From Paenibacillus bovis (GTDB lineage Bacteria > Bacillota > Bacilli > Paenibacillales > Paenibacillaceae): a DNA stretch of 64,000 bases. Of this stretch, positions 51,657 through 54,634 are shown piece after piece. Under the pieces are notes generated by a model. That model had not been told where the DNA came from, searched no databases, and saw only the letters and a program-made list of their open reading frames with translations. Each line of letters opens with the position of its first letter. Position 1 is the first letter of the stretch. Location of the stretch: positions 3,093,501 to 3,157,500 of the forward strand of contig NZ_CP013023.1 in NCBI RefSeq assembly GCF_001421015.2, written 5' to 3'. Made by a program: the position numbers and the translations under genes.

Positions 51657-52586
51657 CTAAATATTTAATTGGGAAATTTGGTCTTTGAGTTTGGCTGCCG
51701 AAGCACGCAGCAATGCTTCTTCTTTTTCATTAAGAGGAATCTGCAGTTTCTCGCGGATACCTTCTCTGCCGACAATCGAAGGTACGCCGAGATAGACATC
51801 GGAGATACCGTGATAGTCATCCAGCAGGGAAGACACATTCAGTACAGCATGCTCGTTTTGTAAAATCGCAGCTACGATCCGGTCCAGTGCCAGAGCAATC
51901 GCGTAGGAAGTAGATCCCTTGGCATTGATGATCTCGTAAGCGGCATTTTTGGTGCTGTTGAAAATATCATCCTGCTCGGCTTCGTCAAAGGCAAGTGCTG
52001 AACCTGCCACATTGGCTAGACTCCATACAGGCAGCTCGGAATCGCCATGCTCACCGATAATGTGGGCATGAATACTGCGCGGATCGATTTCTTTGTGTTT
52101 GCCGATTAGATAACGGAAGCGGGCGCTGTCGAGCAGTGTACCGGAACCGATAACCCGATTGGCCGGCCAGCCGCTTTTTTTCCAGGATACATAGCTGAGA
52201 ATATCGACCGGATTGGTAGCAATCAGCAGAATCCCGTGGTCATTGTACTTGGTAATGTTTTTGATAATGTCGTCAAAAATGGCGGCATTTCGGTTCAGTA
52301 GATCGATTCGCGTCTCACCTGGACGCTGATTGGATCCAGCCGCGATGATAATAATATCTGCATCTTTGCAATCAGAATAGTCACCAGCCCATAATTTGAC
52401 ACCGCCTACAAATGGAAGCCCATGATTCATATCAAGTGCTTCGCCCAGTGCTTTGTCCTTATTGGCGTCGATAAATACCAGCTCGGACATCCGGTTGCGG
52501 AGAAGTAGGGTGTAAGCGGTTGTGGAACCAACCGCTCCTGTGCCGATAACGACTACACGGTGAGGTTTGGATACGGATTCAGACAT
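51657..52586 (-). CDS. ldh: L-lactate dehydrogenase
   Basis: A 309-residue NAD-dependent lactate dehydrogenase (pyruvate to L-lactate). 'VVVIGTGAVGSTTAYTLL' binds NAD; 'GSNQRPGETRIDLLNRN' is the active-site loop with the catalytic arginine; 'NPVDILSYV' and 'GSGTLLDSARFRYLI' carry the substrate arginine; the catalytic histidine is in 'IGEHGDSELP'. ATG 52586 has AAGGAG upstream. Its promoter is at 52628-52656. It serves NAD recycling when oxygen is low. Confidence 0.94.
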   Translation of the reverse strand: MSESVSKPHRVVVIGTGAVGSTTAYTLLLRNRMSELVFIDANKDKALGEALDMNHGLPFVGGVKLWAGDYSDCKDADIIIIAAGSNQRPGETRIDLLNRNAAIFDDIIKNITKYNDHGILLIATNPVDILSYVSWKKSGWPANRVIGSGTLLDSARFRYLIGKHKEIDPRSIHAHIIGEHGDSELPVWSLANVAGSALAFDEAEQDDIFNSTKNAAYEIINAKGSTSYAIALALDRIVAAILQNEHAVLNVSSLLDDYHGISDVYLGVPSIVGREGIREKLQIPLNEKEEALLRASAAKLKDQISQLNI

Positions 52587-52835: not shown

Positions 52836-54140
52836 ATGAAGTGGAGCATGAGCAAATCGCTTCTTATATGGATATCCCTGGTTTTCCTTCTGTCGGCCTG
52901 TTCATCAGCAGGCAACGACAACGCTCTTATGAGTGAGGCTGTACGTGAGCAGCTTCAGAATTCCAAAGAAGATCAGGGTCAGACCATTACCCTCAAACAA
53001 ACAACAGATTCAACCATAAATCAGCGTGCAGGCGGAAGACCTGATACGTCGGAATACAAAATTCAGACCAGACTGACCGATTTCCAGCTGCTGAGTGCCA
53101 GTGCAGGTGTAGCCTGGGGACTCACTCGTAATGAGCTGCGTATCTATGTTACCCAGAGCAACGGCAAAACCTGGGACAATGTATCTCCTGCCAAAACGGT
53201 ATCCTTTTCGGAACCGCCGGTATATGGCAGCAGTATTTTCTTTTTAAATCAGAAAAATGGCTGGGTGGCCCGCAATGCCAACGGGGTCGGTCAGACATTG
53301 ATTTTGCATACGGTAGATGGTGGACAGAACTGGAATGTAGCTACTTTTAATGATAATGGCACTGTGCTGGGCATGTACTTTATTAATGAAAAAACCGGTT
53401 GGGTGATGACATCTACCGATGAATCGAATCACCAGAAGGGCAAGGCGGTTTACCGTACAGAAGATGGTGGAGACAGCTGGACCCGGCTGATGCAAAATGC
53501 TGCCTATGTCAAGTCGGCAGAGCAGACAACCAATGAGCTGCCACAGAGCGGTACACTGATCGGAATGTCGTTCCGGGATAATAAGCATGGATTTATTACG
53601 TTGGAGCAGGATGGCCGGCCCAGTCTCTATACCACTGCAGATAGCGGCAAAACCTGGACAGCCAGCGCCAGCTTCCTCAGCAAGGAAGTAGAGAGTTGTG
53701 ATCGGATCACAACCGGCAAACCGCAATTTTACGGAACAAGCAAGACGAGTGGATGGATGAATATCGGCTGCGTCAAAGGCACACAGACCAGCTATTCGGG
53801 CTATTTTACCGAAGACGGCGGTAAAACGTGGACACATGTGGCTTATGCACTCAAGCCGCAGACAGGAATAAACCAGACCATGGGGCCGACTTTCCTCAAC
53901 CGCAAGCAGGGATGGTCACTGATTGACGGTATTATATATACGACTCAGGATCAAGGTCATACATGGAAAGCACTCCCGGCAAATAATACTCTACAAAATA
54001 CGATAGCCAATTATCCGGAAATGGCCAAACTGCAATTTTTCTCCAAGGATGTAGGCTGGTTACTGGTTGCCAAAAACGAAGAACGTCGTTCCCTGCTTAT
54101 GCAGACAACAGATGGCGGTAAAAGCTGGCATGTACTTTAA
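52836..54140 (+). CDS. Lipoprotein with BNR/YCF48-like beta-propeller repeats
   Basis: A 434-residue lipoprotein. Signal peptide and lipobox 'LLSAC' (Cys about residue 22), then a Ser/Thr/Gln-rich spacer (about 25-70), followed by repeated 'DGG.(N/T/S)W' Asp-box motifs ('TVDGGQNWN', 'TEDGGDSWT', 'TTADSGKTWT', 'TEDGGKTWT', 'TTQDQGHTWK', 'TTDGGKSWH'), as in YCF48 or Vps10-type propellers. It is held on the outer face of the membrane; the role is unknown, possibly a surface scaffold or sugar-binding sensor. The rightward 3' region leads to the FNR-type promoter. Confidence 0.78.
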   Translation: MKWSMSKSLLIWISLVFLLSACSSAGNDNALMSEAVREQLQNSKEDQGQTITLKQTTDSTINQRAGGRPDTSEYKIQTRLTDFQLLSASAGVAWGLTRNELRIYVTQSNGKTWDNVSPAKTVSFSEPPVYGSSIFFLNQKNGWVARNANGVGQTLILHTVDGGQNWNVATFNDNGTVLGMYFINEKTGWVMTSTDESNHQKGKAVYRTEDGGDSWTRLMQNAAYVKSAEQTTNELPQSGTLIGMSFRDNKHGFITLEQDGRPSLYTTADSGKTWTASASFLSKEVESCDRITTGKPQFYGTSKTSGWMNIGCVKGTQTSYSGYFTEDGGKTWTHVAYALKPQTGINQTMGPTFLNRKQGWSLIDGIIYTTQDQGHTWKALPANNTLQNTIANYPEMAKLQFFSKDVGWLLVAKNEERRSLLMQTTDGGKSWHVL

Positions 54141-54256
54141 TTGGTATCATTTTATTTGAATATACGGAGCTGCCGATCAGCATGCAAATGTCTGATTCGG
54201 TCGCTCTTTTTAATAAATTCAAAAAAATAAAAAATAATTTAAAATTTCAGATCATT

Positions 54257-54272
54257 TGTGAAAAAAATCACA
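54257..54272 (+). promoter_or_regulatory. FNR/CRP-family operator TGTGA-N6-TCACA
   Basis: TGTGAAAAAAATCACA is a perfect symmetric match to the anaerobic Fnr consensus of Gram-positives. Its centre is 41.5 bases before the expected transcription start, the standard class II activator position. Confidence 0.8.
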
Positions 54273-54293
54273 TAATATGTGAAAAGTATCGGT

Positions 54294-54299
54294 TATGAT
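54294..54299 (+). promoter_or_regulatory. -10 box of the FNR-controlled promoter
   Basis: TATGAT, 21 bases after the end of the FNR box; the transcript would begin near 54306, placing the box centre at -41.5. Confidence 0.7.
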
Positions 54300-54331
54300 T
54301 GGGGTGTAGAAAAAACAAGGAGATGATTGAG

Positions 54332-54508
54332 ATGAAAGCCAACGTCCAAGAAAACTTTACCCACTATTACATGACCCTTTGTTACAACTGTGAAGAAGCC
54401 GCCAAATGCCAGGATGAAGAAACCTGTCTCGCATGCTGGGCAGATCAAGGATTGTTCGATGGAGAGAAAGATGATACACAGGAAATGCTGCAAGCCTACT
54501 ATGCTTAA
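54332..54508 (+). CDS. Small Cys-rich protein, 58 residues, FNR-regulated
   Basis: Product is 58 residues, cytosolic, acidic, with five cysteines at 17, 20, 26, 32 and 35 in the pattern C-x2-C-x5-C-x5-C-x2-C ('CYNC' ... 'CLAC'). Two CxxC pairs could bind zinc or an iron-sulfur cluster. AAGGAG lies nine bases before ATG 54332; an ATG at 54323 is in frame but too close to it. The gene stands alone behind an FNR-type promoter and before a terminator 84 bases later. I do not recognise the family; a role in low-oxygen redox or metal handling is inference. Confidence 0.75.
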   Translation: MKANVQENFTHYYMTLCYNCEEAAKCQDEETCLACWADQGLFDGEKDDTQEMLQAYYA

Positions 54509-54591: not shown

Positions 54592-54634
54592 AAACCTCCA
54601 CACTTCCAGGATCAATGAAGTGTGGAGGTTTTTT
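54592..54634 (+). terminator. Intrinsic terminator of the Cys-rich gene
   Basis: Arms AAACCTCCACACTT / AAGTGTGGAGGTTT with a 12-base loop and six T. Confidence 0.92.

Follow-up and report, generated by a model that had tools for sequence, protein, structure and literature searches.

We analyzed a window of 64,000 nt from Paenibacillus bovis (contig NZ_CP013023.1), and the locus of interest within it is a small gene that follows a YCF48/BNR-repeat gene on the same strand, with ldh on the opposite strand further upstream. The coordinates of the genes and of the putative promoter and terminator elements are collected in Table 1.

Table 1. Features at and around the small gene (positions are those of the window)
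Feature	Position	Strand	Remarks
L-lactate dehydrogenase gene ldh (context only)	51657..52586	-	Pfam Ldh_1_N/C (PF00056, PF02866)
YCF48/BNR-repeat lipoprotein-like gene (context only)	52836..54140	+	Pfam PF14870, PF15902
Terminator-like hairpin of the upstream YCF48-like gene	54166..54207	+	Fold of 54138-54256, z = -2.76, then a T run
Putative Fnr box, TGTGAAAAAAATCACA	54257..54272	+	16 bases; center at about -41.5; conserved upstream of orthologues
-10 hexamer TATGAT	54294..54299	+	21 nt behind the box, the class II spacing
Ribosome-binding site AAGGAG	54317..54322	+	Read from the sequence
58-aa Cys protein (P0001)	54332..54508	+	C17, C20, C26, and C35 kept; C32 apparently dispensable
Intrinsic terminator of the small gene	54592..54631	+	15-bp stem, 10-nt loop, T run; fold z = -4.15

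An earlier note on this DNA had described a perfect TGTGA-N6-TCACA palindrome, a TATGAT -10 hexamer that would center it at -41.5, a lone 58-residue ORF with Cys in the order C-x2-C-x5-C-x5-C-x2-C, a terminator belonging to that ORF, and ldh nearby. All of these elements were recovered. The box was the only TGTGA-N6-TCACA site without a mismatch in the window, and with the +1 position inferred to be at about 54306, the box center would lie at -41.5. The note had also called the box an Fnr-type site; the palindrome is real, but its type had to be refined. E. coli FNR sites read TTGAT-N4-ATCAA, and the box found here is of the CRP or Bacillus-Fnr type.

The best -35 hexamer of the small gene, at spacers of 16 to 18, matched TTGACA at 3 of 6 positions. 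The small ORF has two in-frame ATGs; the first touches the ribosome-binding site, and the second is the start codon. Because hairpins with a T run stood behind both the upstream gene and the small gene, the latter looked like a single-gene unit. A simple terminator scanner that accepts only loops of 3 to 8 listed no terminator; the loop of the hairpin behind the small gene is longer than that. A second TGTGA half-site was seen at 54278-54282, 5 nt behind the box, and was absent from the two nearest relatives (L001 and L002).

Profile matches to the small protein were found in 224 of the 392 sampled genomes of the order Paenibacillales, representing 17 of 49 genera. In a sample of the class, every one of the 38 matching genomes (of 398) fell within the order, and in a sample of the phylum 8 of 398 genomes matched, only one of them outside the order. 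That lone match covered 27 positions on the tail of a SufC-like protein and was judged to be convergent and not convincing. When 98 relatives were searched with one sequence, 56 matched at E <= 1, including all 16 same-genus genomes (own included), each at E <= 1.1e-12, and a profile built from diverse members matched 41 of the 98 at E <= 0.001. The search of relatives that the earlier note had proposed found both the ORF, with the same Cys spacing, and the upstream box conserved. A full-length Fnr (E below 1e-40) and a match to the small gene occurred together in 41 of the 98 relatives, a count that includes one decayed-looking copy (L217) and a statistic that ignores kinship. Fnr occurred without the gene in 39 relatives, both were missing from 18, and no relative had the gene without Fnr. 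Since 39 of the 80 Fnr-carrying relatives had no match, Fnr physiology does not depend on the gene.

A whole-sequence or profile search that made no use of a Cys pattern yielded 135 distinct proteins. The first, second, third, and fifth Cys (C1, C2, C3, and C5) were kept in all of them, in 133 at the exact spacing. All five Cys were present at the spacing C-x2-C-x5-C-x5-C-x2-C in 122 of the 135 proteins, and 11 lacked only the fourth. The last spacing was one residue shorter in two proteins, P0058 and P0087 (from L163), the latter of which also lacked the fourth Cys. Losses of the fourth Cys occurred in several groups (L138-L141 with L144; L162, L171, L181, and P0073; L176 with P0088; P0066; and L163 with L167). 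The L167 protein, whose gene lies behind doxX and whose last spacing is likewise one shorter, was a true member. Two further counts, 80 of 80 for a separate set of the best 80 of 135 loci and that for a set of 171 proteins, are biased because the loci were fetched with peptide patterns that contain Cys.

The four-Cys core recognized by this comparison consists of C17, C20, C26, and C35 (C-x2-C-x5-C-x8-C) in the protein of the window, and such a core appears fit for one metal center with four Cys ligands. Other conserved positions were Y18, T10, E29, often W36, and a C-terminal T..LL..Y(Y/A). The mean net charge was about -7 over the 171 sequences, and inspection of the sequence revealed nothing that would suggest export. 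AlphaFold2 was run twice, on 22 and later on 68 sequences, and both models were helical at low confidence; the one from 68 sequences had three helices and a mean pLDDT of 62. When the low-confidence model was used in Foldseek and VIA-align, the searches returned one row of no weight and no fold, which argues neither for a new fold nor for an old one. Two loci departed from the pattern in other ways. L217, the weakest profile match among the relatives (5.7e-8), lacked C2 and C3, had no ATG before the match, and carried a perfect box inside the reading frame; we read it as a probable decayed copy. In L180, the reading frame was broken.

The promoter anatomy was also examined by comparison. Within 400 nt, the box was perfect in 25 of the first 30 loci (own copy included) and matched at 9 or more of 10 positions in 29. 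In a named set of the best 80 of 135 loci, which includes P. dauci, P. wulumuqiensis, P. hunanensis, Saccharibacillus, and Fontibacillus, 65 boxes were perfect and 79 matched at 9 or more positions. As a control, 1,327 windows, each of 400 nt, were taken from these loci; none held a perfect box, and 26 reached 9/10. A perfect box was also present in 17 of 20 divergent loci that were picked by hand. When ties were split evenly, 69.4 of 92 distinct promoters had their best -10 hexamer 21 to 22 nt downstream of the box, whereas 300 shuffles averaged 7.5 and never exceeded 13.3. Elsewhere in the box and hexamer counts, ties were resolved towards 21 nt. The match to the -35 hexamer was 2 or 3 of 6 in 66 of the 92 promoters and 5 of 6 in 22 of them, with a mean (2.95/6) slightly above that of the shuffles (2.64). 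The results indicated that the -10 hexamer is mostly placed where class II activation would require it, 21 to 22 nt behind the box.

Among the 20 divergent loci, the box was missing from the small gene at three (L146, L147, and L148). In L146 and L147, a perfect box stood immediately before doxX, and doxX was the gene directly upstream of the small gene. The same gene order was found in L163 (two perfect boxes upstream of doxX), L167 (one perfect and one 9/10 box), L172, and L177, for a total of 6 loci. In L148, the small gene was the last in pflB-pflA-fnr-ndk, and within 1600 nt no box reached 9/10. A second batch of 14 loci contained 13 with the Cys motif. In this batch, L172 and L177 had the gene behind a boxed doxX, L169 had it after ndk with a 9/10 box, and the ten remaining loci comprised eight with a perfect box within 100 nt as well as L173 and L175, which had a 9/10 box at -292 and -180, respectively. 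In L166, the gene followed a formate/nitrite channel gene, and a 9/10 box lay at -181. L016 and L075, which are from one species, had only an 8/10 box and no other of 9/10 within 1600 nt. In most of the loci without a box of their own, then, the small gene stood behind a boxed doxX or ndk, or behind pfl-fnr-ndk.

In L146, L148, L169, L172, and L177, either the small gene or doxX had a nucleoside diphosphate kinase gene (ndk) upstream; the assignment is by Pfam NDK for L148 and by eye for the other four. The DoxX-family membrane protein looked like an Fnr target in its own right in Paenibacillales (L042 and the six doxX loci named above), and a literature search on DoxX with Fnr, anaerobic, and Bacillus returned, by their titles, only papers on other bacteria. 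The gene ldh was found in 67 of 137 loci, and 30 of the 137 were 3 kb and too short to reach it. Judged by gene order, the ldh neighborhood is a real conserved synteny, and nothing found suggests ldh as a functional partner. The YCF48/BNR-repeat gene was on the same strand in 99 of the 137 loci and upstream in 76 of 101. Together, the doxX and ndk neighbors and the single fnr-pfl and formate-channel cases point to general anaerobic metabolism and not to one enzyme.

The 5.5-Mb genome held 8 perfect TGTGA-N6-TCACA sites, versus 4 for the reversed control pattern. The genes beside the other seven were pflB (two sites), adhE/fnr, nirB, an NADH-oxidase-like gene, doxX, and a sugar kinase gene. The nox-type gene reads as NADH-oxidase/CoA-disulfide-reductase-like, the identity of adhE rests on a gene with an aldehyde dehydrogenase domain, and an acyltransferase-like gene is divergent from the sugar kinase gene. 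The nox, nirB, and pflB pieces were cut by locus ends and scored below the NCBIfam cut-offs. The adhE promoter, whose perfect box is shared with a divergent Crp/Fnr gene, was identical to that of the small gene in its box, its TATGAT hexamer, and its 21-nt gap. The same gap was found at nirB (TATACT), at one pflB box (CATAAT), and at the sugar kinase gene (TAAAAT). The nox-type gene (AATGAT, 4/6, at 22 nt), doxX (TTTAAT, at 19 nt), and the second pflB box (GGTAAT, at 24 nt) were poorer fits, without a good hexamer at 21 to 22 nt.

The Fnr of this genome (L031) contains cNMP and Crp-type HTH domains, and its C-terminus, CHCELCPREICRI, carries the Cys cluster typical of Bacillus Fnr. The small gene shares with the Bacillus-type Fnr regulon a regulator with a C-terminal Cys cluster, a palindrome that is kept upstream of orthologues, a -10 hexamer that sets the box center near -41.5, the company of pflB, adhE, and nirB, and, in some species, operons with fnr or doxX. 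It differs in that no family in the searched libraries matches its product, and to our knowledge the B. subtilis Fnr targets include no such protein. On these sequence comparisons, it is very probable that a lack of oxygen turns on the small gene along with fermentation enzymes. In Paenibacillus sp. WLY78, fnr is up 6.84-fold under nitrogen-fixing conditions, according to an excerpt of the published study (PMC4774088).

In the scheme that we propose, the Bacillus-type Fnr of the genome would gain its cluster when oxygen falls, bind the box at -41.5, and recruit RNA polymerase (class II activation). A single-gene mRNA that extends to its own terminator would then be made alongside those of pflB, adhE, and nirB. 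The product would be small, acidic, and cytosolic and built of short helices, with C17, C20, C26, and C35 holding one metal center, most likely an oxygen-labile [4Fe-4S] cluster and less likely zinc. Its most likely role would be that of an accessory or regulatory partner in anaerobic metabolism that is present and loaded only without oxygen. We consider this scheme as a whole, an Fnr-activated cytosolic four-Cys metal protein with [4Fe-4S] more likely than zinc, to be reasonably probable. Because four of the five Cys are conserved, the metal or Fe-S reading is supported, and we regard it as highly likely that the product holds a metal center. The choice between the metals leans modestly towards [4Fe-4S] by analogy with known clusters, and C-x2-C-x5-C alone leaves zinc possible.

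The analogies come from several proteins. In E. coli FNR, the C-x2-C-x5-C motif binds an O2-sensitive [4Fe-4S] cluster. The same motif carries an O2-sensitive [4Fe-4S] cluster in the N-terminal domain of RseC/RnfF (reported for RseC in an excerpt of PMC11729352). The motifs of RseC/RnfF and FNR, however, sit in larger proteins, and our searches found no sequence relationship between either of them and the small protein. WhiB1 also has this spacing in its cluster Cys (C37, C40, and C46), and Wbl proteins are stated to be exclusive to Actinobacteria (both from an excerpt of PMC6282962). Like the WhiB-like proteins, the protein described here is small, probably helical by its predicted model, and has four conserved Cys that include C-x2-C-x5-C. 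In contrast to Wbl proteins, in which the fourth Cys lies 28 residues before the motif, its fourth Cys lies 9 residues after it, towards the C-terminus, and no conserved Cys precedes the motif. In addition, the G[V/I]WGG turn was absent from the alignment rows shown (A1, A2, and A3), and no Pfam match linked the small protein to this family.

A bolder extension of the scheme sees the product as an oxygen-labile [4Fe-4S] switch of the FNR type that stands on its own. It would be a second-tier sensor, made only under Fnr control, and would have arisen independently as a Firmicutes counterpart of Wbl proteins. Such a protein would load its cluster without oxygen and then steer the transcription machinery, the DoxX membrane system, or an enzyme of anaerobic metabolism, and cluster and function would be lost once oxygen returns. 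We offer this as a tentative idea, on the doubtful side. Within a bacterial order, one of the apparent Fnr targets with good conservation is a protein that lacks a convincing family model and retains four Cys in 135 of 135 sequences. This makes it a concrete and cheap test case for a possible new oxygen-responsive mini-protein and suggests that the Gram-positive Fnr regulon has uncharted small members. Paenibacillus species serve agriculture and industry, where oxygen supply matters.

The product might instead be an adaptor of the zinc-finger type, such as a small Gin/CsfB-like anti-sigma factor made under anaerobiosis. Gin/CsfB is a small Cys protein of spore-forming Firmicutes with a Cys spacing different from that found here. 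The similar size, the CxxC-like pairs, and the automatic name of one homologue (P0006, "Inhibitor of sigma-G Gin") fit this idea, but none of 30 diverse members matched Pfam Gin at E <= 0.1, C4 of the second pair has been lost in several lineages, and the zinc-knuckle motif CPxCG was absent from the alignment rows shown. We therefore consider an adaptor of this type somewhat unlikely. It is also conceivable, though unlikely, that the product serves DoxX, a membrane protein, as a redox carrier or thiol partner; the two share an operon in some species. The six loci with doxX directly upstream and the perfect box beside doxX in the genome of the window are consistent with such a partnership; however, doxX was present at only 3 of the 137 loci of the main set and is distant from the small gene in the genome of the window, and a common operon may reflect nothing more than shared timing.

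Because the box is close to a Rex site, a different regulator had to be tested as well, namely the NADH-sensing repressor Rex, in which case the gene would be derepressed as NADH rises. The classical Rex targets (nox, adhE, pflB, and ldh) resemble the company of the box and were counted in favor of Rex. S. aureus Rex binds TGTGA-N6-TCACA, with a refined consensus of TTGTGAAW4TTCACAA (excerpt of PMC2883068), and the window box was 2 of 14 positions off that consensus. Nevertheless, the genome contained no exact Rex consensus and three one-mismatch sites, and the window box was not among them. Of 111 orthologous boxes, none was exact, 18 were one position off, 29 were two off, 60 were three off, and 4 were further off. 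The inner bases were A and A in 88 of 96 boxes, whereas Rex wants A and T. Furthermore, the fixed -10 distance and the poor -35 match in the window are activator-like, and fnr itself adjoins the small gene in L148. Fnr is favored over Rex because of the misfit of the orthologous boxes to the Rex consensus and the fixed -10 spacing, and control by Rex in place of Fnr now seems very improbable; a dual Fnr/Rex site is possible. Finally, the promoter could be real and the ORF behind it a product of chance, or the transcript could be a small RNA. The mere 58 codons and the missing family model would suit this idea, but it is refuted by a dN/dS of about 0.12 (window gene versus L051 or L004), stop codons in the other two frames of this strand, and the matches across the order, all of which indicate that the 58-aa ORF is a real gene.

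With Fnr activation of a four-Cys metal protein as our preferred reading, the small protein apparently belongs to an undescribed family, as far as searched, with a mode of regulation that is already known. Scans of Pfam, NCBIfam, and PADLOC gave no convincing family for it. Matches to UL92 (7 of 30 members, best E 0.0029), Dicty_CTDC (1 member, 0.0012), and IL8 (1 member, 0.004) were rejected as chance Cys matches. Sequence searches of the PDB returned two chance-level rows in one case and zero in another, and no paper on the small protein was found in open-access PMC.

A C-x2-C-x5-C tail was also observed at the end of SufC-like ATPases from another group within the phylum (L186:386-1135 and L187-L199). 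The tail was present in all 13 of the loci L187-L199 and lost in more distant ones. Its resemblance to the core of the small protein is probably convergent, and by analogy it suggests an Fe-S use of C-x2-C-x5-C.
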